The notes: a model not told the origin generated them from the sequence alone. Positions 7,903-33,351 are shown, counted from the first letter of the stretch. The stretch is 64,000 bases of DNA from an uncultured Verrucomicrobia subdivision 3 bacterium (GCA_903872345.1 CAIQKM010000033.1:1-64000), one strand, 5' to 3'. Translations and numbers: made by a program.

Positions 7903-7923
7903 ATTTACGATTGCCGATTTACA
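7903..7923 (-). repeat. Heptamer tandem spacer (ATTTACG ATTGCCG ATTTACA)
   Basis: Three 7-mers just upstream of the 7707..7892 gene. Confidence 0.8.
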
Positions 7924-8008
7924 ATTTGTTGATGGAATGCGCCGGGCCTTGAACCCGGAGTTGACCGATCAGTTGGCCGCCTTCGGATTGATTCCTCGCA
8001 TTCATAAT

Positions 8009-8563
8009 TTATTCGACTCCAGCCTCCGGCTGGTCTTTGAGCAGCGCCGTGCAGATTTTATCCACTTCGCCGTCCACGGCCTTGATGACCACGGCATCGT
8101 CGGCCTCGGTCAACTCAATGCCCAATTTTTTCAGGTCGGCCGCCGGCATATCGGCCAGCGCATCCTTGTTGGGTTTTTCCGTCACATTCAGCCAGGCGAT
8201 CGCATCTGCGCCGAAGCGCTGGTGGATCCGCTTGACCGTGGCCGCCTCATCGGCAATCTCCAACTTCCCATTGCGTTTGGTGAAGCCGATCTTGATGCCA
8301 TGGAACACATAGGTGCGCGGCTTGGTAAAGAGCGGTTTGTTCAACTCAATGGCCGAGTTCAGCACGGCCTTGCTTTCCTGAGCCCGCGCCACGGCCGTGC
8401 GGAGCCCGCGCAAGTGGCGAGCCTTCACGGCCGTCAATTCGGCTTCCAGGCTGGTTACGGCCGTGCGCACGGCATCGTACTCGCGTGAGAAAGCGGCGAC
8501 CCGCTTTTCGATGTCCGCCAGCGTCGCGCCGGCAATAGGTGTATTTTCAGTTTCAGCGATCAT
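8009..8563 (-). CDS. Host-nuclease inhibitor Gam-like protein (Mu Gam family)
   Basis: N-terminal coiled coil and KRNGKLEIADEAATVKRI..., WLNVTEKPNKDAL resemble Mu Gam-family proteins; correct position in a Mu early operon. Confidence 0.75.
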   Translation of the reverse strand: MIAETENTPIAGATLADIEKRVAAFSREYDAVRTAVTSLEAELTAVKARHLRGLRTAVARAQESKAVLNSAIELNKPLFTKPRTYVFHGIKIGFTKRNGKLEIADEAATVKRIHQRFGADAIAWLNVTEKPNKDALADMPAADLKKLGIELTEADDAVVIKAVDGEVDKICTALLKDQPEAGVE

Positions 8564-8573
8564 GGGAGGTAGA

Positions 8574-8601
8574 ATTTGCGATTGGCGATTTACGATTTAC
8601 G
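8574..8601 (-). repeat. Heptamer tandem spacer (ATTTGCG ATTGGCG ATTTACG ATTTACG)
   Basis: Four 7-mers between 8590 gene stop and 8563 gene start. Confidence 0.85.
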
Positions 8602-8868
8602 CGCGGTGGTCTGTGACAGCAGCGCATCAAACTCCGGCGCGAATGAGCCATATTCTTTCTGCAAGCCGGCCAAGTGGTTTTCGGCGTCAACCAAACCCAT
8701 CTTGAGGTCTTGAATGCGCTGTTTGGTTTCAGCGATCTTCACGGAGAAATTCGTAAAGATAGCGCCGATTTTTTCTGCTTCTGCGACAGCAATTAAACGT
8801 ATTTCCGGCTGTACTGGGGCCGCCTTGGCCGTGGGTTTTTTAAAACTGACTCTGATATCGGATTCCAT
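8590..8868 (-). CDS. Coiled-coil phage hypothetical protein
   Basis: 92-aa ORF; C-terminus (RKS-stop) is encoded by the intergenic heptamer repeat. Confidence 0.55.
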   Translation of the reverse strand: MESDIRVSFKKPTAKAAPVQPEIRLIAVAEAEKIGAIFTNFSVKIAETKQRIQDLKMGLVDAENHLAGLQKEYGSFAPEFDALLSQTTARKS

Positions 8869-8887
8869 TTTAGTCCTTTGTGGTGGT

Positions 8888-9214
8888 TTATTTATTGCGG
8901 TTAAAAATGAGGGGCAGGCTGATTTTGATTTGCCAGATCAGCACGGCGACGGCGAGGGTGATGACGGTCCAGGCGAGCACTGGCAACCAGTCGGTGCCCA
9001 AATCAGGATCGGGCAGGTCGAGGCCGAATTCATCGGCGTGGGCGGCGAGGATGAACAGGTATAACACGGCGAGAGCGGCGAGGAAGCTGGCGATCCAGCC
9101 GCGCCGGGCGGCTTGGAGATTCTGCCAGCGTTCGCGGGCGAGAAGGTTGTTAATTCCGTTGTCACAATGCTGTGGACGGTAGTCTTTACGGGGCAGGTTT
9201 TGGATCACGTTCAT
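8888..9214 (-). CDS. Phage membrane protein, two TM segments
   Basis: ASFLAALAVLYLFILAA and WLPVLAWTVITLAVAVLIW hydrophobic stretches. Confidence 0.5.
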   Translation of the reverse strand: MNVIQNLPRKDYRPQHCDNGINNLLARERWQNLQAARRGWIASFLAALAVLYLFILAAHADEFGLDLPDPDLGTDWLPVLAWTVITLAVAVLIWQIKISLPLIFNRNK

Positions 9215-9270
9215 TTGGTTCCTTTGGTTGTTGTTGTTGGTTTGGTTGATGGGGCCCAGCGACTCGCTGG

Positions 9271-9639
9271 TCAGGCGATTCGCCAGGCGGCGAAGACGTG
9301 CGGGTGACGGTCCAGCAGCTGTTTCATGGCCGACTCTTCATCTTCGGCTTGCACCACGGTGCTGGCTTCGTGCGGGCCGTGGTCATCGGCCCAGGCATAG
9401 CCGAGGGCGAAGATCGGCTGGGACTGGGTCATTTCAAAAGCGGTTAAAATGGATTTCATGGCGGGTTGCGGACGGGTTATTTCGGCAATTATCTTTTCGG
9501 TTTGGGCGGCTTCGGCTTCCGCCGCGCGTTTTTGCATCCAACGTTTGGCATCGCGGCGGTCGCGCTGGTTCCGGTGCCGCTTGTCCGCCTTGTGCGGATC
9601 GCGGCCTTTGACCGGGACAAAATGGGAAGTGCGGCTCAT
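9271..9639 (-). CDS. Phage hypothetical protein
   Basis: 122-aa ORF in the early operon. Confidence 0.45.
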   Translation of the reverse strand: MSRTSHFVPVKGRDPHKADKRHRNQRDRRDAKRWMQKRAAEAEAAQTEKIIAEITRPQPAMKSILTAFEMTQSQPIFALGYAWADDHGPHEASTVVQAEDEESAMKQLLDRHPHVFAAWRIA

Positions 9640-9651
9640 GGGATTGATGAT

Positions 9652-10089
9652 TTAAGTGATGGTGATGATCAGTTCAATTTGTTGCGGTGGCCGGGCGGGC
9701 AATTCCGCCTCGGCCAGGCGCACGTTATTCCGGTTCGCCCAGGTAACGGCGGCGGCGCGGGATTTGAGGCGGTACACACACGCCCAGCGGCCCTTCGCGC
9801 CGGGGTTGGCATTCTGTTTGCGCCCGCCGAAGATGCCGGCGGCGGCATCCGTGTGGCCCAGCGGCAACGCTTCCAAAATCTCCAGCGATTTGAGGACATT
9901 CCAGGCGTTGCTCGCCACCCCCTGCCGGTGCTCCTCGCTCACGATATCTTCCGGCACGTCCCCGGCGAATACATACGTTTGCACCAGCGCGCGCCGGATG
10001 ATATGCGCCATGATCGTTACCAGCAGCTCGCGCTTGTACTGGCTCACCGCGCGTTCGGCATCGGCAATGGGCTGAGGCAGGGAGATCAT
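9652..10089 (-). CDS. Phage hypothetical protein
   Basis: 145-aa ORF in the early operon preceded by a heptamer spacer. Confidence 0.5.
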   Translation of the reverse strand: MISLPQPIADAERAVSQYKRELLVTIMAHIIRRALVQTYVFAGDVPEDIVSEEHRQGVASNAWNVLKSLEILEALPLGHTDAAAGIFGGRKQNANPGAKGRWACVYRLKSRAAAVTWANRNNVRLAEAELPARPPQQIELIITIT

Positions 10090-10093
10090 GGGG

Positions 10094-10121
10094 ATTTACG
10101 ATTTTTGATTTACGATTTACA
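10094..10121 (-). repeat. Heptamer tandem spacer (ATTTACG ATTTTTG ATTTACG ATTTACA)
   Basis: Four 7-mers between 10117 gene stop and 10089 gene start. Confidence 0.85.
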
Positions 10122-10404
10122 CGGGTAGCGGATGGCGCTTGCCTGGCAGCGGGCGGGCGTGTTTTTTTTTGGCGAGTTTGACCGCATCATCCAACTGGCT
10201 GGCGGCCGTCTCCAACCAGCCAATCAAATCGGATTTTTTTTCGCCATGGATCAGGGCGGCCAAGATGGAATGCACGGCGGCATGGGCGGCGTTGTTCCAT
10301 TCATACCGGTTTCCGGGCGCGCCCGATGTTTGGACGAAGGGAATCTCGATAACGTACCTCGTTTGGTTTTCCAGATACCGGGGCTGCAAAAATTTTCTGC
10401 TCAT
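10117..10404 (-). CDS. Phage hypothetical protein
   Basis: 95-aa ORF; its stop codon lies within the heptamer spacer. Confidence 0.5.
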   Translation of the reverse strand: MSRKFLQPRYLENQTRYVIEIPFVQTSGAPGNRYEWNNAAHAAVHSILAALIHGEKKSDLIGWLETAASQLDDAVKLAKKKHARPLPGKRHPLPV

Positions 10405-10425
10405 AAATTTTTCAGTTGAGGGGAT

Positions 10426-10439
10426 ATTTACGATTTACA
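10426..10439 (-). repeat. Heptamer spacer (ATTTACG ATTTACA)
   Basis: Two 7-mers upstream of the 10117..10404 gene. Confidence 0.7.
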
Positions 10440-10445
10440 CGCTGA

Positions 10446-11525
10446 TTAAAACTTCTGCCCCTCCAATTCCCGCAGGCCGGCGTGCGCGCTCAGGACGTGG
10501 CCCCACGTCATCTTCTGATTGCGTTCGGCGGCGAGCTTGGCGGCCATGCGCAGGATCGTCAGCCACATGCCCAGGGCTTCATCTTCCACCATCCGCTTTT
10601 CCAGATCACGCGCCGCGCCGTCGCTGGGGGCCAGCTTGTAAGCGGCGGCAAACAAGTTTAAATCTTGTTGCGTCGGCACGTTGGGCAGTTGCAGCGCGCA
10701 CAGGCGGCGCCGCTTGGTCTGCCGCAAAATCTTCGCCACACTGCCGGTCTCCATCGCATCGCGAAAAACATTGGTTGCGCAGATCACCACGCCACATTGC
10801 TTTTCATCGAACAACTCGCGGATGAATTCAATCGTCTGGATCGGCATGGTGCTGTTGCCGCTGTCGCGGATGCAACGGTGGGCTTCATCCACGATCAGCA
10901 GCATCCGGTCATCAAACGCCTTGATAATGCGCTCGCGCAGCTTGGTAATGCTCATGTTGGTGGGGATGCGCAGGATCTCCGCCAGCCGCGTGAGAAAATT
11001 CAGCAGCGCCCCGCCCGTGGGCACCGAGACATAGATGGTGCTGCCATGATTGTGCGCGGCGGCGTACGCTTTTAACGCCTCGGTTTTACCAATCTGCATA
11101 TCGCCGAACACAAAGGAGATTTTCTGAAATTCCAGCGAGGCCGCGCACACTTCCCAGATACGGTTCGTCAGCTTGGTTTTGATGAACGCCAGCTTGCGGC
11201 CCTTGTCACGCCGATCTTGCAAATCGAAAAACGTTTCGATTTCCTTGACGATGTTCTCCAGGCTGCCCTCGTATTTGCCGCGAAACAACTGGCTCACCAC
11301 CGCCCCGGTGTAATTGATCAGCCGCGCCGTCTCATCAATCCCCAAGTCATTTTCAATATAGAAGGCGTGCAGCCGGCGGATGGCACTGCGCTGGGTGTCC
11401 GGCAGTTCGGCGGTGGCATGGTTCACCACGTCGCCGGGAATCTTGCTGCGGCTTTCGTTCATGGCCGCCATCACATGCGCGGGAGCGGTGGTTACGATGG
11501 TCTGTTTGGTATCGGTTTCTTTCAT
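10446..11525 (-). CDS. MuB-like AAA+ ATPase, transposition target selector
   Basis: Walker A GDMQIGKTEA, Walker B LLIVDEAHRC, N-terminal HTH; adjacent to MuA-like gene. Confidence 0.88.
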   Translation of the reverse strand: MKETDTKQTIVTTAPAHVMAAMNESRSKIPGDVVNHATAELPDTQRSAIRRLHAFYIENDLGIDETARLINYTGAVVSQLFRGKYEGSLENIVKEIETFFDLQDRRDKGRKLAFIKTKLTNRIWEVCAASLEFQKISFVFGDMQIGKTEALKAYAAAHNHGSTIYVSVPTGGALLNFLTRLAEILRIPTNMSITKLRERIIKAFDDRMLLIVDEAHRCIRDSGNSTMPIQTIEFIRELFDEKQCGVVICATNVFRDAMETGSVAKILRQTKRRRLCALQLPNVPTQQDLNLFAAAYKLAPSDGAARDLEKRMVEDEALGMWLTILRMAAKLAAERNQKMTWGHVLSAHAGLRELEGQKF

Positions 11526-11546
11526 GTTGCCCTTTTAAATGTGCGT

Positions 11547-13520
11547 TTAACTTGGTTCGCTGCGTTTACCGAGGATGCCCAGGAGTGAATCTCCGGCGGT
11601 ATCTTCGGAAATGGGTTCGGCGGCGGTGGCGGCCGGCGCGAGAATGTCGGCGGCGGCGCTCTTGCCCTCGGTTTTTACCAAGGTAGCGGCGGCCTTTTCC
11701 GCATCGGTCAGGGGCTTGCGCGTATCGAGCACGCGAGCATTGTGCTGGGCGGCCTCCAAGCGCTCCTTGGTGAGGCGTGCGCCCGTGGCCGCGACCGGGG
11801 CGAGCAACTCGGCCTCAACCTTGCGGGCGGCGCCGAGTTGCCGTTCCAGCCCGGCCACGTCATCGCGGCGGTGGGTTTGCCAGGCACTCACCACGCCCAC
11901 CCATGCGCCACGCGCGTCAAAGAGTTGCGCGGTGTGCGGGGACATGGGATTAACGACGGCGGTGAACTTGTCCCCCGGCGCAAAGTGATGGCCGAGGAAC
12001 CGCAGCGGCGCGGGCGAAATGGCATCGTCTTCAAACGTGATCAGGTGATCTTTGCCCACGGTCACTTCGCGGCCGGCCACGCCGCGCAGGAGCATGGCGG
12101 TTTGCTCGGGGCGGAGACGGGCCAGCCGGGCGCGGCCCTGGTCAAAGACTTCGCGCGGGCTCATCAAGCGCGGCTTGGGCGTGGCCAGGGCTTGCAGCAT
12201 GGCTTGCTTCTCCGCCGGCATGGCCAGAAACTTTTGCGCGGAGATCACGCCAATGTCCGGCAATTCAAAGTCCATGGTGGTGAGGCCGGCTTCCAGCCAG
12301 CCTTCCAGTTCGTGCTCGGTGCGCTGGTTGATGCGTTCGGTGATCTCTTCCACCAGCCATTTCGCCTGGTTCACTTCCAGGAAAGGCAGGCGCAACATGG
12401 CGGCGCGTGGCGCGGGCAGGGCGGCCATGGCGTTGATGAGCGCGCGGGCGTGACTCTCGCGACCGTAGAGTTCCTCCGGTTTGTTCAGGCGCGAGTTGCT
12501 GCCGGTCTGGCCGGGGAACTGCAGCAGGTCGGCGGTCTCGTTGTGAATCAGGTTGCCCAGGCTTTCCAGCGCGGCCTTGAAACGGAAGTTGCCCTTGCTG
12601 GCCCCGGCGTACTGCCCCGCAAAAGCCGATGCGCCTTCAATGCCTGAGCGTTCCACGGTGATCCGGCCGTTGCTGAGGTCAAACAGAATGCGTTCCAACT
12701 CTTCTTTGATCGCGGCGGTGCCGTGTTCCACCATGAGCACGCAACCCTCCGGGTGGAACCCAAATTCCGCCAGCACATGCGCCACGAGAAACAGCATTTC
12801 GTGATCCTTCAACCCAATGCGCGTGCCATCCTCCGCCTCCATGCGCGGCTTGATACCACGGGCAAACTGGCACGCGCTGAAGAGATCGTGGGCGTGAAGT
12901 TGGATCAGGCGCATGGGCTTGCGCTGGTTCAGGCCCACGACCATGAAGTCATGCCACATGTCGTCAAAAATGAACCGTTGCCCCACGGCCAGGCCCACAC
13001 GGGTGGTAAAGATTTTGGGGCGAAAATCGGCGGCGGTGCTGCGGCCTTGACGGGCGGCCTTCAATTCAAAATCCGAGGGCCGATGGCGCATCAAATTGTC
13101 GTAGCTGTAGCCGGACGGCAGCGTGCGACGAGAGACCGTGGCATCAATGCCGGGGATGGGTTCGCCGGCTTTGAATTGCCGCACAAATTCCCGGTAGGCC
13201 GGCGCGCATTTGCGCGCGTTCTGTTTGCACAGCCCCTGCCAGTATTGAATGAACTCCCGATCCAGCGTGCGATCTTCCGGCGCTTTGGCCCGGTTCACCA
13301 GGGCGCGCCACGATTGCGCCTTGCGCCAGTCATCATATTTGCGACGGGCGGTCTTGTAGCTCACTCCCATGCGCGCCGCGACGGCCTCCAGGCTTTTCTG
13401 GATCGGCCGGGTGACCTTGCCGAGTTCTTCGATCCAGAGCTCGACTTCCGAGCGGACGCTATCCGGCAACTGCATGAAGGCGGCCAGGTCGCTGGTAGGA
13501 ATTAGGGTGGTGGTGGTCAT
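11547..13520 (-). CDS. MuA-like DDE transposase
   Basis: 657 aa; N-terminal HTH (GVSYKTARRKYDDW), FIFDDMWHDFMVVG catalytic-core start, C-terminal Mu-type region; paired with MuB. Confidence 0.88.
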   Translation of the reverse strand: MTTTTLIPTSDLAAFMQLPDSVRSEVELWIEELGKVTRPIQKSLEAVAARMGVSYKTARRKYDDWRKAQSWRALVNRAKAPEDRTLDREFIQYWQGLCKQNARKCAPAYREFVRQFKAGEPIPGIDATVSRRTLPSGYSYDNLMRHRPSDFELKAARQGRSTAADFRPKIFTTRVGLAVGQRFIFDDMWHDFMVVGLNQRKPMRLIQLHAHDLFSACQFARGIKPRMEAEDGTRIGLKDHEMLFLVAHVLAEFGFHPEGCVLMVEHGTAAIKEELERILFDLSNGRITVERSGIEGASAFAGQYAGASKGNFRFKAALESLGNLIHNETADLLQFPGQTGSNSRLNKPEELYGRESHARALINAMAALPAPRAAMLRLPFLEVNQAKWLVEEITERINQRTEHELEGWLEAGLTTMDFELPDIGVISAQKFLAMPAEKQAMLQALATPKPRLMSPREVFDQGRARLARLRPEQTAMLLRGVAGREVTVGKDHLITFEDDAISPAPLRFLGHHFAPGDKFTAVVNPMSPHTAQLFDARGAWVGVVSAWQTHRRDDVAGLERQLGAARKVEAELLAPVAATGARLTKERLEAAQHNARVLDTRKPLTDAEKAAATLVKTEGKSAAADILAPAATAAEPISEDTAGDSLLGILGKRSEPS

Positions 13521-13524
13521 GGGA

Positions 13525-13548
13525 ATTTACGATTGCCGATTTACGATT
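13525..13548 (-). repeat. Heptamer tandem spacer (ATTTACG ATTGCCG ATTTACG ATT)
   Basis: Immediately upstream of the MuA start; contains the stop of the upstream gene. Confidence 0.85.
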
Positions 13549-14467
13549 GAAACATCTGGCTGATGGCCTTGGCATCCCGTTTGGCTACGGGTTCTTTAAG
13601 CCAGGCTTTGCGGGCGTTTAAAGCCTGCTCCAGCGTGGCGATCTGCGCAGTGATATCGGCATCTGTCAACAGGAAGAACTTGTCTTTGTAGGCCGCCAGC
13701 CCGCGCGCAATGCCATGCCAATCCAGTTCCGCCTGTTCGCGCCTGAGCGCCGTTTCCTCCGTGAGGGTCAGCTTCTTTTTGGGCTCCGCTGTTTCCGCCT
13801 CACCGGCCTCACCGGCCTCGCCTGCGGATTCCCCTGGTGGCAACGCAGTTGGCTTGCGGCCGGTTACGCCGGCTCCCGGCGGTTTCTTCCACAAACCCAG
13901 CGCCTCGCCGAATTCTGCCTGGGTTTTGCCATCCGTCAGTTTCTTAACGGCCGTGGCCATGGCCTCGCGCTGGCGGGCGGAGAGCGTGGAGAGCGGTTTT
14001 GCCATGGGGTCAAAGTCTTTGAGCGCCGGCAGTTTCTTGAGGCGCGGCGCGGCAGCCTTGGCCATGCTCATGAACCGATACGCCGTGGACTGCGCCAGAC
14101 CCGACTCTTTTTTCAAAATTGATTCCCAGTCACCTTTCCCATTCTGGGAAAGGTGGGCTTTGGAACCATTCTGGATGCCATTGTTTTTCTGCAGCTCCAT
14201 CAATTCAAAGCCGGTCATCACCTGGGCAAACAGCTTGCCCTGCTCAAACATCCGGGCGGTATCCAGCCATTGCCGGACACCGTCCCAGGTGCCGGTCACC
14301 GTTACGGCACCGGGTTTGGCGGCGGGTTTGGCGGCGGGTTTTACTTCGATTGTTGTCGGGGTCATATTGGGAGAGACTGAGGGGGCATGTTCCACTTTGG
14401 CCCAGCGGATTCTTTGCGCTTCGCGAATACGCGCCATGCTGGGAGATTCTTTGGTTGTGTCGGGCAT
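13541..14467 (-). CDS. Phage early-region protein, possible DNA-binding/regulatory
   Basis: 308-aa ORF, RIREAQRIRWAK; stop codon TAA lies within a heptamer repeat unit. Confidence 0.55.
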   Translation of the reverse strand: MPDTTKESPSMARIREAQRIRWAKVEHAPSVSPNMTPTTIEVKPAAKPAAKPGAVTVTGTWDGVRQWLDTARMFEQGKLFAQVMTGFELMELQKNNGIQNGSKAHLSQNGKGDWESILKKESGLAQSTAYRFMSMAKAAAPRLKKLPALKDFDPMAKPLSTLSARQREAMATAVKKLTDGKTQAEFGEALGLWKKPPGAGVTGRKPTALPPGESAGEAGEAGEAETAEPKKKLTLTEETALRREQAELDWHGIARGLAAYKDKFFLLTDADITAQIATLEQALNARKAWLKEPVAKRDAKAISQMFQS

Positions 14468-14469
14468 AT

Positions 14470-14760
14470 TCAGGCTTCGGGGTTAAAAGCTTCGGCCACT
14501 TTGTCGAGCAGTTCCGGGTCAATTTCCCATTGCACCATCACGGCTTTGAATTGGGCGGGCGGCAGCAGATGCCGGCAGCTCACCACCACGCCGGTAATGA
14601 ACCCGCGCGCGGCATGAACCTCGTGAATCTCGCCCAGCGCCAGGGTGGTCTGTGCCTCGGCCACCAGGCCGCCCAGCAGGAGCAAAGGATTTTCCGCCTC
14701 CCAAGAGGCCGGGGCCTCGCTGGCGGTCAATTCGTTCGGATTATATTTGCTCAAGCTCAT
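14470..14760 (-). CDS. Phage hypothetical protein
   Basis: Preferred start MSLSKYNPNEL after a decamer-repeat leader; the ORF-track start at 14793 reads through the repeat. Confidence 0.5.
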   Translation of the reverse strand: MSLSKYNPNELTASEAPASWEAENPLLLLGGLVAEAQTTLALGEIHEVHAARGFITGVVVSCRHLLPPAQFKAVMVQWEIDPELLDKVAEAFNPEA

Positions 14761-14771
14761 GTTTTTTTTTG

Positions 14772-14801
14772 ATTCGTGTTTATTCGTGTCCATTCGTGGT
14801 T
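14772..14801 (-). repeat. Decamer tandem spacer (ATTCGTGTTT ATTCGTGTCC ATTCGTGGTT)
   Basis: Three 10-mers upstream of MSLSKYN start. Confidence 0.8.
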
Positions 14802-15274
14802 GAACTTCTTTGGTACAGCGCGCCCAACCAGCGGCGCTTTAAAAATTCGGCCAGCACGGGGCGGGCGTAAAAGTTCCGGCCATCCTTCATTTCCCCATTC
14901 AGTTCCGCGCCAAAATCAATGCGCGTGCGCGGGCGGATTTGAAACAGTTGATCCACCTCGCCGGCATGGAACTGAGTGCGCTTCACGGGCAGGATCCGGG
15001 CAATCACCCAATCCAATTCCCAGTGCCCATATTTCCCCGGGTGGGATCCACCGGCACGTTGGGCCGCTCGGGCTAAGAGCTCCTCGCGCCAGAAACGCAG
15101 ATCGCGGCGGGTGGTGCTGGCATCGTTCGCCAGATTAAACACCCACACCAACCCGGTCTCTAGCAGCGTGCCGCCATCTACGAGTTCGAAAATCTGCGTC
15201 ACACTGCGGCCGAGATCGGCGGCGGCTACATCAATTTTGACCAGGGCGGCGTTCACAAAATTTACGATCACTGC
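14780..15274 (-). CDS. Phage hypothetical protein
   Basis: GTG start (VIVNFVNAALVKIDVAAADLG) overlapping the stop of the upstream 15268..15477 gene; coordinate of start approximate. Confidence 0.5.
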   Translation of the reverse strand, partial: AVIVNFVNAALVKIDVAAADLGRSVTQIFELVDGGTLLETGLVWVFNLANDASTTRRDLRFWREELLARAAQRAGGSHPGKYGHWELDWVIARILPVKRTQFHAGEVDQLFQIRPRTRIDFGAELNGEMKDGRNFYARPVLAEFLKRRWLGALYQRSSTTNGHE

Positions 15275-15602: not shown

Positions 15603-15608
15603 GGGGGG

Positions 15609-18138: not shown

Positions 18139-18165
18139 ACCACAGAAAACACAGAGAACACAAAG
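18139..18165 (+). repeat. ACCACAGAAA/ACACAGAGA/ACACAAAG leader repeat
   Basis: Imperfect approximately 9-10-mer tandem repeat upstream of ATG 18181. Confidence 0.6.
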
Positions 18166-18180: not shown

Positions 18181-18423
18181 ATGATGCGAGCCAAAATGAA
18201 AGTTGAATCCGTGAAGTCTTTTGCTCATCCCCAGCAAGAAATCGTCATGCACCCGGTTTGCGGGAACAAGCCGTTCGGGCCGGCTGGCGAAAGCGAAGAC
18301 AATACCTTCGCGCGTTATTCGCCCTCCGGCGAATTAAAACTCACCATCTCGAACCCTGATCTGATCGGCCAGATTTTGCCGGGTCAAACATTCTATCTGG
18401 ATTTTACCGAACACGTCGCCTGA
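18181..18423 (+). CDS. Phage hypothetical protein
   Basis: 80-aa ORF preceded by an ACCACAGAAA/ACACAGAGA-type leader. Confidence 0.45.
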   Translation: MMRAKMKVESVKSFAHPQQEIVMHPVCGNKPFGPAGESEDNTFARYSPSGELKLTISNPDLIGQILPGQTFYLDFTEHVA

Positions 18424-18425
18424 AT

Positions 18426-18446
18426 CCCGAAATCCAAAACCCGAGA
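18426..18446 (+). repeat. Heptamer tandem spacer (CCCGAAA TCCAAAA CCCGAGA)
   Basis: Between stop 18423 and lipase ATG 18450. Confidence 0.8.
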
Positions 18447-18449
18447 CCC

Positions 18450-20111: not shown

Positions 20112-20675
20112 ATGAGCGCCCCAACCAAATTACGCGCGGGAACCAGCGAGCTAACCAAGCTCAAGGTGCTCTGGCGCGATACGCTGGCCGAATCCACGCA
20201 GGCTTATTGGCGCTCGCTCTTTGTCTCGGCGGATTCCACGCAAGCGCAAATCCGGCGGGAACTCCAGGCCAAGCTGAAGATCAAGCTGGATTACGATTCG
20301 CAGTTGAACAGCTTCCGCGACTGGGTGGCGCAGCAGGATGCGATGAACCAGGAGGCCGAGGACGCGGCGGAATTCGAGCGGCGCATTCTGGCGGAGCATC
20401 CCGATTGGACGAAGGATCAGGTGCGCGAGGAATTGATCAAACGGTTTTACCAGCGCGCCCTGGCCACCGGGGATGCGGATTTGGGCCTCAAAACCATTGT
20501 GCAGGATTTGAACGTACAGAAGGTGGAACTGGACAGCCGCAAGCTGGCGCTACTGGAGAAGAAGGCGGCGGCTTACGACCGGGCGCAGGCCGCGCTGGCG
20601 GAAGCGAAACAATCCAAGGGCGGCATCACGCCGGAAACCATGTCCAAGATCGAAGCGGAATTGAAATTGCTGTGA
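20112..20675 (+). CDS. Mu gp27-like terminase small subunit (DUF3486-like)
   Basis: Start MSAPTKLRAG; helical 187-aa protein directly before the large subunit with ATGA-type overlap. Confidence 0.65.
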   Translation: MSAPTKLRAGTSELTKLKVLWRDTLAESTQAYWRSLFVSADSTQAQIRRELQAKLKIKLDYDSQLNSFRDWVAQQDAMNQEAEDAAEFERRILAEHPDWTKDQVREELIKRFYQRALATGDADLGLKTIVQDLNVQKVELDSRKLALLEKKAAAYDRAQAALAEAKQSKGGITPETMSKIEAELKLL

Positions 20676-22039
20676 GCGAATCAACCACCATTACCAAAGC
20701 CAACGTGGCCGCAACGCAGTTGCCATACTTTATGCCGTATCAGGCGGCATGGATCAACGACACCGCCCATCTGCGCATTTGCGAGAAGGGCCGGCAGATC
20801 GGTCTGAGCTATGCCGATTCCTACGACAGCGTGCGCAAGGCCGCCATGAAGGGCGGCAAAGATGTTTGGGTGATGAGCCGGGATGAAGTGCAGGCCAAAC
20901 AATATATCCTGTACTGCAAACGGTGGGCCAATGTCTTGAAATACGCCGCCGATGATTTGGGCGAACAGGTGTTCACCATGGACAACGGCAAAGCGGTCAA
21001 GATCCAGGTGCTCACGTTTGCCAGCGGTGCCAATATATATGCGCTGAGCTCCAACCCAGATGCCATCGTGGGCAAGACCGGCCATGTGAAGCTGGATGAA
21101 TTTGCCCTGCACAAGGATCAGCGCCAGCTCTTCGCCGTGGCCAAGCCGGTCATTCAATGGGGTGGCACCCTGAGCATCATCAGCACCCATCGGGGCGCGC
21201 AGACCGTGTTCAACGGATTGGTTGAAGACGTGAAGGCGCGCGGCAACAAGATGGGCTGGAGCCTGCATACCATCCCCATCCAACGCGCCGTGGCCGATGG
21301 CATCGTGGAAAAGATCAATGCCGCCACCGGCAAGCACGAGACGCGCGAAGAGTGGCTCGCTCGCCAGCGCGCCGAGTGCATTGATGAGGAGCAATGGTTG
21401 CAGGAATATTGCTGCATTCCGGCCGATGAATCCTCCGCCTTCATCACCTATGATTTGATTTCCGGTTGTGAAGATGACTCTGCGAAGCGCGATTTTGCCT
21501 ACCTGAAAGATTGCAAAAACCCGCTTTATATTGGCTACGACGTCGCCCGCACCACCGACCTGAGCGTGATAGATGTTGAGGAAAAGGTGGGGGATGTCTA
21601 TTGGGAACGGTTGCGGATTGAGATGCGCGGCAAATCCTTTGGCGAACAGGAAGCCGAGCTTTACCAGCTCATGGCCCTGCCCCAAGTGCAACGGGTGTGC
21701 ATTGACGCCACCGGGCTGGGGATGCAACTGGCGGAACGCGCCAACCAACGCTTTGGCTTTCGCGCCGAAGCCGTGCGGTTTACCAACACGGTCAAGGAGC
21801 AGCTCGCCTACCCGCTGCGCGCCGCCCATGAAGATCGCACCCTGCGCTACAACCGCGATGAAAAGCTGCGCGCCGATCTGCGCGGCATCAAAAAGGAATC
21901 CACCGCCAGCGGCAACATCCGGTTCATCGGCGAAGCGGCGGATAGCCATTGTGACCGGTTCTGGGCCAAGGCGCTGGCACTGCATGCCGGGCAGGTGGCC
22001 AAGTCCTGGGGCGGCGGACGCGGGAGCAATCTGATATGA
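20672..22039 (+). CDS. Phage terminase large subunit (Mu gp28-like)
   Basis: GTG start; LRICEKGRQIGLSYA, VKLDEFALHKD, ISTHRG, YIGYDVARTTDLSVI nuclease motif. Confidence 0.85.
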   Translation: MSESTTITKANVAATQLPYFMPYQAAWINDTAHLRICEKGRQIGLSYADSYDSVRKAAMKGGKDVWVMSRDEVQAKQYILYCKRWANVLKYAADDLGEQVFTMDNGKAVKIQVLTFASGANIYALSSNPDAIVGKTGHVKLDEFALHKDQRQLFAVAKPVIQWGGTLSIISTHRGAQTVFNGLVEDVKARGNKMGWSLHTIPIQRAVADGIVEKINAATGKHETREEWLARQRAECIDEEQWLQEYCCIPADESSAFITYDLISGCEDDSAKRDFAYLKDCKNPLYIGYDVARTTDLSVIDVEEKVGDVYWERLRIEMRGKSFGEQEAELYQLMALPQVQRVCIDATGLGMQLAERANQRFGFRAEAVRFTNTVKEQLAYPLRAAHEDRTLRYNRDEKLRADLRGIKKESTASGNIRFIGEAADSHCDRFWAKALALHAGQVAKSWGGGRGSNLI

Positions 22040-22181: not shown

Positions 22182-24482
22182 ATGAATTATCGCTCTCCCG
22201 GCATCCCTTTGGCAGAAGCCGGCGGTCTGCCTCCCATCCGTGGGGCCGCCAGCCCGGCGGAAACCGTCGTTAAGCGGGATCCTTCCGATGCCTCCATTGG
22301 CACCGGTAACTTTACCCAGGGCTTGCCGGCCTATTGGTTCGCGCGGGGCATTGGCGGGGAAGGGCGTGAAGGCATGAGCAGCCCCTACGCGCACTCCGCC
22401 TGGGTGCGTCGGGCCATCAAGTTTGTGTCCGGGCCGATCTCCTCGGTGGATTTGGTCTTTACCCAGCCGAAGGCCTCGGCGGCCATGCGCCGGCATCGGG
22501 GGCAGGGCCGGCGGCTGTTCACCAGCCGGGGCATTGTGGCCCGTAATCAGGCCGCCGAGGTGGATCTGCCCCAAATCCGCGAATGGCTCAGGGAGCCGAT
22601 GGCGGGCCTAACCTATGAGGACTTCGTGGAAGCATCCCTGGGCTGGTACAAATTGCAGGAATGTTTCTGGGTACTGGCGGATCAGGACGCCCGCGTTCCG
22701 TTCCCGGAAGTGAAGGCCAATCCCTACGCGCCCATCATCGTGGCCCGGCCGGATCGGATGCGGCCCACCGTGGCAGCCGGCAAGATTACGGCGTGGAATT
22801 TTACCGATGCCAGCGGCAAGGTCTGGGAGTTGGATCCCGAGCAGGTGGTGCGCCTCTTTGGCTGGAATCCCTATGATCCCCATCGCGGCCTGGGCGATTA
22901 TGCCAGCGCGCACTTGGCGGCGGAATCGCATCACCTCGGCAGCAAGTTCAAGCGCAACCTCACGGCGGATAATGATACCGCCCCGATCATCAGCGCCAAA
23001 AACGGCACCCCCAGCGATTTGCAGATTGAGCAAATCAAGATGAGCATCCTGGAACGTCGCCAGGCGCGGATGCGCGGCAACAGCAAGGCGCTCTTCCTGC
23101 CCGGCGAAGTGGACGTGCATGACCCCAAGATTCTCAGCGTGGACGCGGCGTTCATTGCCGGCATGTTGGAAGATCGCCACGAAATCTTCATCGCCTTCGG
23201 CGTGCCGCCCAGTTTGGCGGATGTGAAGGCCAGCTACAGCATCGGCCAGGCGAGCGATTGGTTTGCGCTTATCTTTAATACCTGCATTCCCGAGGGGAAC
23301 AAATTCTGCGCGGCCCTGGAGCAATTGATCTTCCGCCTCAGCGGCGAGCGCGTGGAAGTGGGTTTGGATTGGGATGAGCACTACGTCATGCAACAGGTGC
23401 GCAGCGAACGGATGAAAGATGCGGACAGCCTGTTCGGCAAGGGTGTGCCCATGAAGGTAATTAGCGAGTATCTGAATCTGGGCCTGCCCGAGTACGAGGA
23501 ATGGAATCAAGGCTACATCCCCATCAACCTCACGCCCGTGAGCGGCGCGGCCAATGAAGCGGCCCAGACGGTGCCAGAACCGGCCGCCGATGATTTTAAT
23601 GAGACGCCCGGCGCGGACAATGCCACGGGTGAGGCCAAGGCCGGCAGCGCCTTGATTCGCAATGCATTTTTGCAACGGTCCAATGGGGCACCGGCAACTT
23701 GCCGGAGGAAGCCGGCCAGCAAGAAACTGTGGGAGCAGCACATGAAGCTGCGCGGCGCGGCCATCAAACAATATCAGGCCAAGGTAAGCAAGCTGTTCAT
23801 GGCTTACCGCGTAACGGCCCTGAAACATTTGGATGCCGTCTATGCCGGGAAAAGCGTGGCCACCAAATCCCTGGTGGAAGTGATTTTCTCCGCCACCGGG
23901 TTTAATCGCGATCTCAAAACGAACCTCAAACCGGTCACGCAATCCGTGCTGCAACGCGCGGGCGAAGAGTTGTTCGGCGAGATCGGCCGCCCGGAAGATG
24001 CCTGGACCATGGCGCCGCCCAAGGCCGTGGCCTTTATCGAAACGCGCGACAAGCTGCTGGCCAGCGTGGGCGACACCGCGCAAAGCCAGTTGAACACCGC
24101 CTTGCAGGAAGGCATTGCCAATGGCGAGACCACCGCCGAATTGGCCGGCCGCGTGAAAGGCGTCTTTAACAATTTGCAGAACTTCGAGGCCCGCCGCATT
24201 GCCATGACGGAGACGAGCGCCGCCTACGGCTTCGCCCGGCACGAAGCGATGAGCGATGCCGGCATTGAGTTCAAGAGCTGGCTTTCCAGCCACGGGCCGA
24301 ACATGCGCGAGGCTCATGCCCAGGCGGAGTCGGATTATGCCGATGCGCCCATTCCCCTGGATGAACCCTTCATCGTGGATGGCGAAGAACTGATGTACCC
24401 CGGCGATGATGCCGGTTCCCCGGGCAACGTGATTAACTGCCACTGCATTCAACTGGCCGTGGCCAAACCCAACGACGAATAA
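22182..24482 (+). CDS. Fused portal (DUF935/Mu gp29-like) and minor head/F-like (Mu gp30) protein
   Basis: N-terminal part portal-like; C-terminal RRIAMTETSAAYGFARHEA...NVINCHCIQLAV is the phage Mu F-like region. Confidence 0.8.
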   Translation: MNYRSPGIPLAEAGGLPPIRGAASPAETVVKRDPSDASIGTGNFTQGLPAYWFARGIGGEGREGMSSPYAHSAWVRRAIKFVSGPISSVDLVFTQPKASAAMRRHRGQGRRLFTSRGIVARNQAAEVDLPQIREWLREPMAGLTYEDFVEASLGWYKLQECFWVLADQDARVPFPEVKANPYAPIIVARPDRMRPTVAAGKITAWNFTDASGKVWELDPEQVVRLFGWNPYDPHRGLGDYASAHLAAESHHLGSKFKRNLTADNDTAPIISAKNGTPSDLQIEQIKMSILERRQARMRGNSKALFLPGEVDVHDPKILSVDAAFIAGMLEDRHEIFIAFGVPPSLADVKASYSIGQASDWFALIFNTCIPEGNKFCAALEQLIFRLSGERVEVGLDWDEHYVMQQVRSERMKDADSLFGKGVPMKVISEYLNLGLPEYEEWNQGYIPINLTPVSGAANEAAQTVPEPAADDFNETPGADNATGEAKAGSALIRNAFLQRSNGAPATCRRKPASKKLWEQHMKLRGAAIKQYQAKVSKLFMAYRVTALKHLDAVYAGKSVATKSLVEVIFSATGFNRDLKTNLKPVTQSVLQRAGEELFGEIGRPEDAWTMAPPKAVAFIETRDKLLASVGDTAQSQLNTALQEGIANGETTAELAGRVKGVFNNLQNFEARRIAMTETSAAYGFARHEAMSDAGIEFKSWLSSHGPNMREAHAQAESDYADAPIPLDEPFIVDGEELMYPGDDAGSPGNVINCHCIQLAVAKPNDE

Positions 24483-27712: not shown

Positions 27713-27738
27713 ACGCCGGTCTAACCCACGTTTAAGCC

Positions 27739-27921
27739 ATGTTAAATCAACCGCCCCAGGATCGAATGGTACGTGCCGTACAGGCCATTACCAGGTCCGT
27801 GCCTGCGCCCGTTCGGTCTGGGGCGGTTTTCTCCCCCGAAACGCCTGGCTACGAAGAATGGTTGCGCCGCCAGGCCCAGCCGGTTCGTAAATCGGCAATC
27901 GTCAATCGTAAATCCCCATGA
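27739..27921 (+). CDS. Small phage ORF
   Basis: 60 aa; its C-terminus RKSAIVNRKSP is encoded by heptamer repeats and its stop overlaps the next ATG. Confidence 0.35.
   Translation: MLNQPPQDRMVRAVQAITRSVPAPVRSGAVFSPETPGYEEWLRRQAQPVRKSAIVNRKSP
27886..27913 (+). repeat. Heptamer tandem spacer (CGTAAAT CGGCAAT CGTCAAT CGTAAAT)
   Basis: Immediately before ATG 27918. Confidence 0.85.
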
Positions 27922-28592: not shown

Positions 28593-29153
28593 ATGAGCCA
28601 AGCCTTTGACATCCAAATCTCCGGCGACCTCGTGGCGCAAATCCCGCGCCTCAAGGATCCCGCCGGGCACAGCCGTGCGATCGCGCGGGAGATGGATTAC
28701 CAAAATCAACTCACCGTGGCCCGCATTCAGGCCGGGCACTTGTCCGGCCCCACCAGCGACAGCAGCCTGAGCGTGCGCACCAATCGGCTGCGCAGTTCGG
28801 CCAATGCCAGCAAGGCGGTCATGGCGGGTGCCACCGTGGTGAGCACCATTGGCAGCAACGTGGTTTATGCGGCGGTGCACGAATTTGGCGCGGTGATCCA
28901 GCGCACGGTCAAAGCCGGATCCGTGAAGCTCCGCACCAACAAGCAGGGCAATCTGCTGCGCCGAGGCAACCTCGCCACCTTTGCCGGCCGCAATCACAAA
29001 TCCTTTAAGACGGTGCAATTCAAAGGCGGCAAAAGCTACACCATCACCATCCCGGCGCGCGCGCCCTTCGCCCATGGCATTGCCGACCGCCTGCCGGAAT
29101 ACACCGCCGCGTTTGAAGCCGTGACCGCCGAATACCTGGGAGGGGCTAACTAA
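28593..29153 (+). CDS. Phage virion morphogenesis / tail completion-like protein
   Basis: AAVHEFGAVIQ and IPARAPFAHGIADR motifs typical of phage virion morphogenesis proteins. Confidence 0.65.
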   Translation: MSQAFDIQISGDLVAQIPRLKDPAGHSRAIAREMDYQNQLTVARIQAGHLSGPTSDSSLSVRTNRLRSSANASKAVMAGATVVSTIGSNVVYAAVHEFGAVIQRTVKAGSVKLRTNKQGNLLRRGNLATFAGRNHKSFKTVQFKGGKSYTITIPARAPFAHGIADRLPEYTAAFEAVTAEYLGGAN

Positions 29154-29890
29154 TGCTCACCGATTTCAAACAGCTCCAGCGCGATGCCGCCTTCGCTTTT
29201 GCCAGCGACAGTCGGTTGCAGACGGTGAACATCATCACGCGCGAGCAGTTGCTGGCGGATCAATCCCGCCTGCCCGATGCCACGCTCAGTGCCGAGGTGC
29301 TCGTGTATATCACGCCGCGCAACGGCAAGATGGGCGTGGGCGTGATTGTGGAGAAGCCGCGCTTTGAAGTGCTGAATCCACAGGCACCGGGGCCGCAAGG
29401 CGACATCGTGATTGAATCCCTGGTGCTGGAAGATCAGCTCACTAACATGGATCCCGCCGAGGGCACCTTGCTGGCCGCGGACTATGTCGCGCAAATCCTG
29501 TTGGAAATCGGCCACGGCTGGAATTTGAATTTCCAATCCGATTTCACGGCGGACCGCCAGGCGATGGTGGAAGCCAAGGAATGGCAGCCGCTGCGCGCCT
29601 ACAAGGTTAGCCACCGCATGATCCTCAGCCGCGCCCAGACCGCGCGTGTGACCACGCCCGCCATCACCAACGATGGCACCAACATCACGCTCACGAACGA
29701 TCCCAGCACGCCGTCCGCCGCCATCTATTACACGCTCAATAGCGATTCCCCGGCCCCGGACAATGCCCAAGCCACCCTTTACACTGGCCCGTTTGCCGCG
29801 CCCGCTGGCACCACCACCTTGCGCTGGGCGGCCTACCAGCCTGGCTGGCTCAATTCTGCGTTCGCCCAAGTAACCATCAACAATAATTAA
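29153..29890 (+). CDS. Tail-module protein with C-terminal chitobiase-like repeat domain
   Basis: C-terminal AAIYYTLNSDSPAPDNAQATLYTGPFAAPAGTTTLRWAAYQPGW resembles CHB_HEX_C_1 domains. Confidence 0.55.
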   Translation: MLTDFKQLQRDAAFAFASDSRLQTVNIITREQLLADQSRLPDATLSAEVLVYITPRNGKMGVGVIVEKPRFEVLNPQAPGPQGDIVIESLVLEDQLTNMDPAEGTLLAADYVAQILLEIGHGWNLNFQSDFTADRQAMVEAKEWQPLRAYKVSHRMILSRAQTARVTTPAITNDGTNITLTNDPSTPSAAIYYTLNSDSPAPDNAQATLYTGPFAAPAGTTTLRWAAYQPGWLNSAFAQVTINNN

Positions 29891-29902
29891 TCCCCAAAAC
29901 CT

Positions 29903-30850
29903 ATGAGTCTATCCATCTCTCGCGCGAACCTGCCTGGCAGCGGCGCACCCAAGATCACCTACAAAGGCGCGACCCTCTGGACGCGCGCCGATTTGATGAT
30001 TCCCCTGAAGCAATCGCTGAAGGAACAAAAAAGCAGCATGTACGGCCTTGTTACGTGGACGCGCGATGGCCGTAGCATTGAATTCGAGATCCCGATCTAC
30101 GGGTTCTGGCAATCGCTTTCCGTGCTGTTTCCCAGCTACATTCTCAACGGCATCTACGGATCCCGCATCTTTGGTCTCACCGACACGCCCTTGACCATTG
30201 TGGCCCGCAATGGCGATCAGATTGTGCTCAACAACGTGCAGCTCGTGGGCATCACCAACCTCAAGCTGAAGGCCAATGAACAGATTTTCTCCGGCAACGC
30301 CAAGTTTGTGGCACTGATCGGCAACAACCTGTCGCCGAATACGCCCAATTCGTATTACACCATTACCACCGGCGCGGCGTATGTGGATGCCGGCTTTGCC
30401 CAGGCGAACTTCAAAGCCCTGGCGTGGACGGGCGCGTGGGGCGCGCGCAGCGGGTTCACCAACATCCTCACCCAAGATGGCTGGGATATTGACTGGCAGG
30501 TGAAATTCCTGAGCCCGGATGATTTGATTGATGGCATCGGCCCCGTGGATAAGTTCTTTGATTCCTGCCTGCCCAAGATTTCCGCCATCGTCGTGGGCCC
30601 CAGCCTGGCGCAGTTGGATGCCGCCGTGGATTTCCAGGGCAACAACGCCACCGTGGGCGCGGACATCGCCGCCGATTCGGATCCGCTCGTGCTCACCGAT
30701 GGCACCAGCACCATCACGCTGGCCGTGAGCAGCGTGATTGAAACCGGCCTCGTCTTTGCGCCCGGTAAAAAACGCATCGCCAAAACCACCTGGCAGGGAA
30801 CGCTCGGCTTCTCCGCCGGCGTGCCCAACGCCATCGCCGCCGTGTCGTGA
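29903..30850 (+). CDS. Tail tube/major tail protein candidate
   Basis: 315-aa protein between tail completion and tape measure genes. Confidence 0.5.
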   Translation: MSLSISRANLPGSGAPKITYKGATLWTRADLMIPLKQSLKEQKSSMYGLVTWTRDGRSIEFEIPIYGFWQSLSVLFPSYILNGIYGSRIFGLTDTPLTIVARNGDQIVLNNVQLVGITNLKLKANEQIFSGNAKFVALIGNNLSPNTPNSYYTITTGAAYVDAGFAQANFKALAWTGAWGARSGFTNILTQDGWDIDWQVKFLSPDDLIDGIGPVDKFFDSCLPKISAIVVGPSLAQLDAAVDFQGNNATVGADIAADSDPLVLTDGTSTITLAVSSVIETGLVFAPGKKRIAKTTWQGTLGFSAGVPNAIAAVS

Positions 30851-30910
30851 GGCCACGACGGGCCATTATTAAAAATGTCTGACCACCCTTAACCAAAAAA
30901 TAAAACACCT

Positions 30911-31564
30911 ATGAAAAAAATCCTGCTCATCGCTGATTCCGCCGCCGGCATTCCGGCTGATGTGGAAGCCAAACTCGAAACCGAAGTCGCCACCGCGCCC
31001 GCGCCCGTGCCCGCGCTGGATACCAAGCCCATCATTGCCGATGTGGAACACGCCATCGCCGCGCTGGCCGCGCAGCCCAACTTGCATCCGCTGCTCGGCT
31101 TCGCCCTCACCAACTTGCGCGGCGCGCACAACGCCCTCAAAGGCCACCTCAAGGGCTTGTCCGCCCTGCTGGTGCTGCTCGCCGTGCTGCTGGCGTTTGC
31201 CAGCCCGGCCCGCGCGCAAATCTTCTACGGCGGCGTGTCCGTGACCAACAGCGCGTTTGCGCCCGTGCAATCCTCGTTTGTGCTGCTCACCAATGTGGCC
31301 TCCTCCACGCTCCCCGCGCGCACGTTGCAAGTGCTGAACATCCAAACGAATCAACCCATTACCGTGTGGTACGCCTACGCCTTCGCCGGGTCCACCAACT
31401 TGTTCCTGGTGAATTCCAACATCTACACCTTCCCCGCCAGCAATGGCTGGGTGAATGGCGCGACGTTCACCACCAACGTGGCCAGCGTCTTTAACAGCGT
31501 GCCGATCCAGCCCTACGGCCTGATCAACCTCGGCGGCTATACCAACACCGTCCTCTTTCAGTGA
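30911..31564 (+). CDS. Phage protein with internal signal/TM segment and exported domain
   Basis: LSALLVLLAVLLAFASPARAQ at about residue 80, then TN-rich region. Confidence 0.6.
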   Translation: MKKILLIADSAAGIPADVEAKLETEVATAPAPVPALDTKPIIADVEHAIAALAAQPNLHPLLGFALTNLRGAHNALKGHLKGLSALLVLLAVLLAFASPARAQIFYGGVSVTNSAFAPVQSSFVLLTNVASSTLPARTLQVLNIQTNQPITVWYAYAFAGSTNLFLVNSNIYTFPASNGWVNGATFTTNVASVFNSVPIQPYGLINLGGYTNTVLFQ

Positions 31565-31573
31565 GGCCGCTGC

Positions 31574-31601
31574 CCCGAGACCCGAAATCCGAAACCCGTT
31601 C
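31574..31601 (+). repeat. Heptamer tandem spacer (CCCGAGA CCCGAAA TCCGAAA CCCGTTC)
   Basis: Immediately before GTG 31604. Confidence 0.8.
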
Positions 31602-31603
31602 CC

Positions 31604-31996
31604 GTGAAACTGACTTGGACTCCACCAACCGGCGGTGCCGTGGTGCTTGGCGATGATTCGGTGAAATCCACCATCATCGTCGAGCAACTTGATGCCCCGG
31701 CGCTCGTTCAGAAACTGCTGTTCTTTCGCGGGGTCACCGCCCAACTGGTGGCGCGCGGCGGGGATGAAGGCACGTTTGTGTGCGTCATCCAGCCCGCCCT
31801 GGCCAATGCCGATGCCGCCAGCGCGTATCTCAAAACGGAGCTGGCCCGGTCCGGTCAGGCGGGCAGTCTCGCCTGGGGCCGCGTTTCCGCCATCTTCACG
31901 TTCAACGGTGCCGTGCTGCGCCGGGTGACCGTGGCGGAATTGAACGGCGCGCGGCTGCGGCTGCGCTACTCCTTCGGCTTCGCCTCCCTCACCTGA
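31604..31996 (+). CDS. Phage tail-module hypothetical protein (GTG start)
   Basis: 130-aa ORF preceded by a heptamer spacer. Confidence 0.5.
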   Translation: MKLTWTPPTGGAVVLGDDSVKSTIIVEQLDAPALVQKLLFFRGVTAQLVARGGDEGTFVCVIQPALANADAASAYLKTELARSGQAGSLAWGRVSAIFTFNGAVLRRVTVAELNGARLRLRYSFGFASLT

Positions 31997-32024
31997 TTTC
32001 CAATTGCCAATTGCCAATCTCCAA
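31997..32024 (+). repeat. Heptamer tandem spacer (TTTCCAA TTGCCAA TTGCCAA TCTCCAA)
   Basis: Between stop 31996 and ATG 32029. Confidence 0.85.
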
Positions 32025-32028
32025 AATT

Positions 32029-33315
32029 ATGAGCAAAACCCTGTTTAAAGCCTCTTTAAAGGCCCTGAGCGCCTTTGCCGCCCTCGGCGTGTTTGCCATC
32101 CTCGGTTCCTTTCTACTGGCCCTGTTTTTGCGCTTGGTAACCCTGGCCTGGCACTGGGGCTGGCGGCTGTTCGCCTTGTTGGCCATTTGCCATCTGCCAT
32201 TGGCCATCTCCGCCCGCGCCCAGACCACGGCGGTCTTTTTTTCAATGCAGAACCTGACTGGCGGCGTGAACAACCGGACGATTAACCTTTTGCCGGACAC
32301 CGCCAATGCGCCGGTTTTTGTGGGCACCAATTTGCTCCAACTCGGGCCAATCCAGCTTCAACCGGTGGGCGGCCAAGTGACAACCAACCTGGTGCCGTGG
32401 GGCTACTCGCTCTATGTCCAGGGCTGGCCGCGCCCGGTTCATATTGTGGTGCCCAGCAGCACCAACACGCTCAATGTGGTGGGCATGATTAACACCAATC
32501 TCTACTGGCCGCTGACGATTTACCAAATGACGGCCACCGGCACCAACGGCATTAATGTTACGCAAACCAACAACCAGGTAATCATTGACGGCAGCGGGCT
32601 GGATGCCGCCGGCACCGCGTGGGCGACATTTTCCTTTAATGCCACCAACGGCATCTATGCCTTTAATCTCGCCTCCAGCTATGGCCTGCCCGCCGCCGGC
32701 GTGGTGGGATTGGGATCGGCGGCGTTGGTAAGCACCAACACGTTTTACAGTCAGGGCGTTTCGGGTTACTTGGATATCCTGTACAACCTCGCGCAAGGCC
32801 AGGTGGGCTGGCTGGTCGTGAGCAACTTGTCTTCCATTCAGGCCGTGCCGCCATTGTTGGATTACTTGTGGACCGCCGGAAACAATACGGCCTCGCTCGC
32901 CACGTTTGCCGCCGTGAGCACCAATCAAATCACGGTTTACGGCGCGGGCACGGCCAGCGCCAACGGCACCTACACCTTCAACGCGGCCGCCGGTGTTTGG
33001 ACGAATGCCGCCACGGCCGATACGATCACCAACAGCGGTGCCTACCTCATCATTGCCACCGGGGCCACCAAACTCTACAAATCGTCCAATGCCCTGGCCT
33101 ATCCGGCCGGCAGCGGCGCATGGTTCAATGGCAGCGGTTACAGTGGCAGTTCGCCCATGCCCTACAATGCGTTTCTGCGGGTAACGGATTATTCGCTCAA
33201 TAATGTTGCGCCCACCAACATTCCCGGCAAAGCCCTGACCGGCCTTGCCACCAACACAGTCGTGCCGATCTCCGCGCATGTGACCAATGGCGTTGTTACG
33301 TGGACCAGCCCGTAA
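32029..33315 (+). CDS. Phage protein with N-terminal TM/signal region and TN-rich exported domain
   Basis: Start MSKTLFKASLKALSAF after a heptamer spacer; RLFALLAICHLPLAISARAQ signal-like segment. Confidence 0.6.
   Translation: MSKTLFKASLKALSAFAALGVFAILGSFLLALFLRLVTLAWHWGWRLFALLAICHLPLAISARAQTTAVFFSMQNLTGGVNNRTINLLPDTANAPVFVGTNLLQLGPIQLQPVGGQVTTNLVPWGYSLYVQGWPRPVHIVVPSSTNTLNVVGMINTNLYWPLTIYQMTATGTNGINVTQTNNQVIIDGSGLDAAGTAWATFSFNATNGIYAFNLASSYGLPAAGVVGLGSAALVSTNTFYSQGVSGYLDILYNLAQGQVGWLVVSNLSSIQAVPPLLDYLWTAGNNTASLATFAAVSTNQITVYGAGTASANGTYTFNAAAGVWTNAATADTITNSGAYLIIATGATKLYKSSNALAYPAGSGAWFNGSGYSGSSPMPYNAFLRVTDYSLNNVAPTNIPGKALTGLATNTVVPISAHVTNGVVTWTSP
32179..32213 (+). repeat. Heptamer tandem repeat inside coding sequence (TTGGCCA TTTGCCA TCTGCCA TTGGCCA TCTCCGC)
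   Basis: Five 7-mers encoding part of the LLAICHLPLAISAR signal-like segment. Confidence 0.7.
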
Positions 33316-33323
33316 CCCCTAAC

Positions 33324-33351
33324 CCCGAAATCCGAGACCCGAAACCCGTTT
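33324..33351 (+). repeat. Heptamer tandem spacer (CCCGAAA TCCGAGA CCCGAAA CCCGTTT)
   Basis: Between stop 33315 and ATG 33362. Confidence 0.8.

Follow-up and report, generated by a model that had tools for sequence, protein, structure and literature searches.

What are the short tandem repeats of seven nucleotides that sit between the genes of a verrucomicrobial prophage, and do they act there as control signals? The question is raised by a 64,000-nt stretch from an uncultured Verrucomicrobia subdivision 3 bacterium (GCA_903872345.1 CAIQKM010000033.1:1-64000; hereafter the window), in which a Mu-like (B3-type) transposable prophage of a Verrucomicrobia host carries arrays of degenerate 7-mers at stop/start junctions. 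A first-pass annotation had noted the arrays and proposed that they are translation-initiation or coupling elements, or else scars of gene insertion. We consider it probable that they are movable, dispensable spacers of a host-lineage repeat class, repeatedly inserted at phage junctions, and not a conserved control signal.

The arrays themselves are real. Reading of the sequence finds tandem degenerate 7-mers at 10/10 of the places listed by the first-pass annotation, although the site at 10426 has two units only and those at 7903 and 18426 are weak, and Tandem Repeats Finder (TRF), run unprompted, returns seven of them (8574, 10093, 13525, 27885, 31574, 31996 and 33324). A search of the window with the AATCGTA-type query ATTTACGATTTACG at ≤3 mismatches gave 18 matches against 3.0 expected from 100 shuffles, 0/100 of which reached 18. 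At a strict threshold the window holds five period-7 arrays, compared with 0.2 in dinucleotide shuffles and 0-1 arrays of other periods; among junction arrays of the prophage, seven have period 7, against 0, 0, 1, 3 and 1 for periods 5, 8, 10, 11 and 13.

On the minus strand, AATCGTA-type arrays lie at 7903..7928 (at least three units, with the open reading frame (ORF) 7707-7892 starting 10 nt downstream; read from sequence and pattern search), at 8574..8601 (four units; TRF and context), where the stop of gene 8590-8868 falls within the array and gene 8009-8563 starts 10 nt away, and at 10093..10120 (four units; TRF), again overlapping a stop (that of gene 10117-10404), with gene 9652-10089 starting 3 nt away. 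A two-unit AATCGTA array at 10426..10439, found by pattern search, separates genes 10117-10404 and 10446-11525, and the array at 13525..13548 (TRF), which provides gene 13541-14437 with its stop, lies a few nucleotides from where the transposase gene (11547-13520) starts. On the plus strand, a four-unit AATCGTA-type array at 27885..27914 (TRF) ends 3 nt before the ATG at 27918 and encodes the C-terminus of a 60-aa ORF (27739-27921), whose tail reads VRKSAIVNRKSP up to the stop. CCCGAAA-type arrays occupy the entire gap between the stop (18423) and the ATG (18450) at 18424..18449, and lie between genes 30911-31564 and 31604-31996 at 31574..31598 (TRF) and between genes 32029-33315 and 33362-34888 at 33307..33348, while a CCAATTG-type array at 31993..32024 separates genes 31604-31996 and 32029-33315. 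The earlier observations that arrays provide the stop codons at 13541, 10117 and 8590, all of which fall within them, and encode the last residues of an upstream product are thus borne out. A known RNA element at these junctions was ruled out, since positions 5000-50000 of the window gave 0 matches to the curated RNA families of Rfam.

No conserved unit underlies the arrays. At least three unit families occur in the window and relatives carry many unrelated ones, so that the single consensus TYNSMAA put forward by the first-pass annotation is too loose to stand; across phages, the units share only a weak asymmetry (4.37 bits vs 3.69 +/- 0.11 for shuffled units), and TYNSMAA was rejected as one motif.

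Relative to orthologous junctions, the arrays are insertions. The comparison of relatives with and without each spacer, suggested by the same annotation, was informative: in phage relatives whose proteins are moderately to highly identical, the corresponding genes follow one another with no array between them, and orthologous junctions usually lack arrays, with array-free gaps of 0-7 nt. At 31993..32024 the window reads TGA-TT-array-TT-ATG where one relative (L026) reads TGA-TT-ATG (gap 32 vs 2), and at 31574..31598 the gap is 39 nt in the window vs 0 in L026 and 7 in another relative (L027). Genes orthologous to those flanking 13525..13548 overlap by 4 nt in L103, and within the phage pair L107/L105 gaps of 78 vs 3 and 52 vs 7 are seen. 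At the terminase-portal junction, 8/33 relatives carry arrays, with units unlike between phages. Array-free orthologous junctions and unrelated units at one junction therefore argue against a sequence-specific or required signal, and the initiation or coupling role falls in its required form.

The same comparisons bear on whether the arrays are scars of gene insertion or module exchange, or boundaries for phage gene swapping. One or two extra genes do stand at the 33315/33362 junction in relatives, and interruption in the closest relative is nominally more frequent at array junctions (10/49 vs 51/404; odds ratio 1.8), but this excess is not significant (p=0.18) and at most array junctions the same two genes are joined in relatives. 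With no significant association with gene gain or loss, the scar proposal finds no support here, and we judge it very unlikely. Lambdoid phages carry boundary or linker sequences, short repeats at gene junctions thought to promote module exchange; unlike these, the array junctions here are without significant excess of gene change.

Where could such inserts come from? Heptad arrays form a pool in the host genome. Host statistics, drawn from ~1.4 of 6.5 Mb or about a fifth of the genome, reveal 61 period-7 arrays outside genes vs 32 inside, in families that include AACATCC, TTTAGCC, AATTTCA, AATCGTA and CCCGAAA. The composite pattern CCGAAATCCGAGACCCGAAACC matches 26 genome places at ≤3 mismatches, including one perfect match that does not lie in the phage (reversed control 0), and the exact pattern AATCGTAAATCGTAAATC is found in 31/59 relatives (reversed control none). 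In the window prophage, the array at 33307..33348 has an exact 22-bp copy on host contig C73 and the array at 18424..18449 is a 3-mismatch relative of a host-dispersed array. Contig C40 of this genome holds a second prophage, in which 6/18 codirectional junctions have arrays, among them AACATCC, the commonest host family. Units of the two own prophages match the host pool in 8/16 cases vs 7/84 for other phages (p=2.5e-4). Four-copy arrays also occur in Bacteroidales, Akkermansia, Anaerolineales, Saprospiraceae, Armatimonadetes and others.

These arrays turn over. The host and a sister species (~92% identity) share array loci that differ by whole units (7 vs 4) or by single substitutions, and an intergenic AATTTCA array of 3.6 units in the host part of the window (47823..47847, strand unassigned; TRF) is also present in the sister species. 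Steps of 7 in copy number between sister species are what one would look for if each array had been born in place, from a local 7-nt duplication through polymerase slippage unrelated to any other array, and the polymerase footprint has been held responsible for the heptamer excess of bacteria (see the discussion in PMC4692102). Duplication in place would not produce shared unit families, however, and the same families and sub-variants recur at many unrelated host and phage loci, with own-prophage units matching the host pool; independent birth is thus very improbable. At L311 10735-11160, this genome has a 424-bp insert with its boundary inside an array, where the sister species (G008) has the array alone. 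Host contigs C89, C81 and C153 (L301, L306 and L307) also carry several copies of a longer dispersed repeat that includes CCGAAATCCGAGACCCGAGACCCATGCCCGTTTTCCC or a close variant of it.

The distribution of arrays differs between phages and host. The phage set comprised 41 contigs with related terminases (654 kb, of which 91% is coding), and gene calls throughout come from our own script; these contigs are related to each other and unevenly sampled, and their records are not independent. They hold 110 period-7 junction arrays vs 9-16 for control periods, and 72 of the 110 are left without the three richest contigs. Per non-coding kb, array density is 1.87 in phages vs 0.29 in the host, or about 6-fold. 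Within long phage spacers, 18 arrays abut starts and 19 abut stops where uniform placement expects 6.8 each (~2.7-fold), whereas in long host spacers only 1/21 arrays lies near a start vs 1.6 expected, revealing no start preference. A scan for enrichment at start codons, of the kind the first-pass annotation had suggested, thus gives a positive answer in phages and a negative one in the fifth of the host genome that was covered. Similarly, the junction-specific placement it described holds for phages but not generally: dozens of arrays are spread host-wide, the one at 47823-47847 among them, and a heptad array (GCCATTT GCCATCT GCCATTG GCCATCT) lies inside gene 32029-33315, at 32179..32209 on the plus strand (TRF), in a hydrophobic N-terminal segment. 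The L027/G014 orthologue of this gene has a different heptad array at about the same place (L027 12583-12608), which indicates that arrays are tolerable in coding regions where the sequence matters little.

Arrays as a phage-wide property of the terminase family were ruled out, since six named phages with B3-type terminases from other hosts (228 kb) have two junction period-7 matches, no more than control periods. The phage L134 (IMGVR_UViG_2820209022_000004) has 23 junction arrays of GAGTTAG-type heptads in 21 kb, and inverted array pairs flank many of its gene junctions.

Do the arrays nevertheless help genes to start? They could be unstructured initiation leaders under positive selection, with ribosomal protein S1 or a cold-shock protein as a possible binding partner, and permit a start free of a Shine-Dalgarno (SD) sequence and uncoupled from the upstream gene. 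At short junctions the median distance from array end to start is 5 nt, and predicted structure around starts is weaker with an array (median -1.8 vs -6.2 kcal/mol, p=3e-6). The host rarely uses SD sequences (an SD core in 9% of its genes vs 5% in a control window), which fits such leaders; because SD sequences are rare throughout the host, their absence near arrays is uninformative, and a missing SD was rejected as a signal. A translational role was also proposed by MacGregor for TAACTGA repeats (PMC4679880). On the other side, the weaker structure stems partly from lower GC and base composition, comparison with letter-shuffled versions shows no reduction in structure for the real arrays (p=0.26), and their C-over-G bias is only slightly above that of array-free upstream regions (p=0.049). 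Moreover, orthologues start without arrays across gaps of 0-7 nt, stops are abutted as often as starts (19 vs 18), and host arrays show no start placement. We therefore regard selected initiation leaders as possible though unlikely.

Strand orientation is what remains of a link to translation. On the coding strand, C exceeds G in 44/59 start-proximal arrays. For a test of orientation, arrays were transplanted into other junctions, flipping in place being unsuitable as flanking residual units pair with the flipped copy; the natural strand had the weaker structure in 43/58 arrays near starts (p=3e-4) and in 16/32 near stops, so that the unstructured sense orientation is found near starts only. 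With one vote per phage the result is 17/22 (p=0.017). We read orientation as a filter: an array inserted next to a start is kept only when its mRNA strand leaves initiation unhindered. Start-proximal arrays as unstructured, translation-friendly leaders, a weaker version of the initiation element first proposed, thus find some support, and active enhancement of translation is possible. A three-frame stop function was ruled out, stop triplets being similar in number in either orientation (183 vs 206).

Taken together, these observations favor dispensable spacers of host origin, for which the following course may be envisaged. Degenerate heptamer direct repeats native to the host lineage (Verrucomicrobia subdivision 3) reside in its intergenic DNA and turn over as entire 7-bp units are gained, lost or replaced, and copies from this pool would be inserted into resident Mu-like phages. 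The phage arrays were thus presumably copied from host arrays. Phage DNA is ~91% coding, which leaves insertions hardly any place to survive other than stop/start gaps, dispensable ends of proteins and hydrophobic leader segments. Near starts, selection would retain only A/C-rich, unstructured mRNA strands, leaving permissive SD-independent leaders. Replication slippage in 7-nt steps would account for growth of the arrays, not for their spread.

Some results sit uneasily with movable, dispensable spacers. Short codirectional junctions carry arrays at 6/37 in the window prophage and 33/556 in other phages vs 3/426 in the host, so that tolerance alone is insufficient; in phages, insertions are either more frequent, less strictly filtered, or of benefit. 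Agreement with the host pool is incomplete, its commonest family, AACATCC, being missing from the window prophage, and the orthologous comparison cannot always exclude loss in the relative. A more far-reaching proposal, which we consider distinctly unlikely, is that the host has a process, working in steps of 7 nt, that writes or copies pool arrays into resident-phage junctions far more than into host operons, and that strand selection makes the start-adjacent ones portable, sequence-independent, SD-free leaders, i.e., expression-competent spacers.

Heptamer repeats have been described elsewhere. The STRR of filamentous cyanobacteria are dispersed heptanucleotide tandem repeats in a bacterial genome, and the likeness to the present arrays is one of description (see citations in PMC4692102), units and host group being different. 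The intergenic GGGAATC / GGGGATT heptamers of Xanthomonas and Nostoc lie near ORF ends and, similar to the present arrays, vary in length between close relatives (PMC4692102). Those repeats are G-runs with quadruplex potential, whereas the present arrays, near starts, have more C than G on the mRNA strand, and tandem GGGRATC-like units at ≤2 mismatches number 0 in the window.

A close precedent is found in the TAACTGA direct repeats of Beggiatoaceae (MacGregor 2015, PMC4679880), which lie just upstream of starts, overlap upstream stops and occur without SD sequences, and for which translational regulation was proposed; the role suggested for the present arrays thus has a precedent. TAACTGA repeats are also found in Cyanobacteria and Bacteroidetes, change in 7-nt steps in Cyanothece, and are reported in a main text that never uses the word "phage". 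Shared with the present arrays are 7-bp direct repeats in few copies, small arrays at several unlinked loci with degenerate neighbors, array ends a few nucleotides before starts, overlap with upstream stops, lack of SD sequences, a patchy distribution with 7-nt-step indels and empty sites in relatives, and a preferred orientation to the downstream gene (here C>G 44/59; unstructured sense 43/58). Start-adjacent placement is shared by phages, at starts and stops alike, but not by the host genome. By analogy, the present arrays would work like TAACTGA repeats, but with other units, many families per genome, phage carriers, empty orthologous sites and no conserved unit per junction; TAACTGA pairs at ≤2 mismatches number 0 in the window. 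No paper on such arrays in phages was found in the literature searched, most subscription journals lying outside it.

Heptamer tandem repeats are over-represented in many bacteria, an excess that is unexplained. Phages that share gene order but not arrays form many natural before-and-after pairs, which open to test both where arrays come from, with copying out of a host pool as the proposed source, and how they affect translation. Should the arrays near starts indeed be portable unstructured leaders, they would show how low-SD lineages acquire new start regions.

The carrier is recognized as Mu-like by adjacent genes at its left for a Mu-type transposase (11547..13520, minus strand; phrog_310, E=8e-18) and a Mu B-type transposition ATPase (10446..11525, minus strand; phrog_296, E=2e-26; Pfam AAA_22 and TniB), and by a module at its right with a B3/Mu-type terminase large subunit (20672..22039, plus strand) and a portal / head morphogenesis protein (22182..24482, plus strand; phrog_2662 and phrog_2468). 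The gene at 29903..30850 (plus strand), which served to find phage relatives, probably encodes the major capsid protein, as judged from position alone and without a family match. The rpoB of the host is 94-96% identical to that of a metagenome-assembled genome labelled Verrucomicrobia subdivision 3 (L163).

Repeats of other periods were also observed. A 10-bp tandem repeat (ATTCGTGTCC x2.7) at 14772-14798 of the window sits right where genes 14470-14793 and 14780-15271 overlap, and period-10 arrays are likewise enriched in host intergenic DNA (62 outside genes). A 9-bp repeat of CACAGAAAA type (18141-18162) lies just upstream of the gene at 18184, and similar TCTCTGCGTTCTCTGCGGTTAA-type inserts are found at junctions of phage L107. 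Repeats of 9-11 bp thus seem to enter junctions too.

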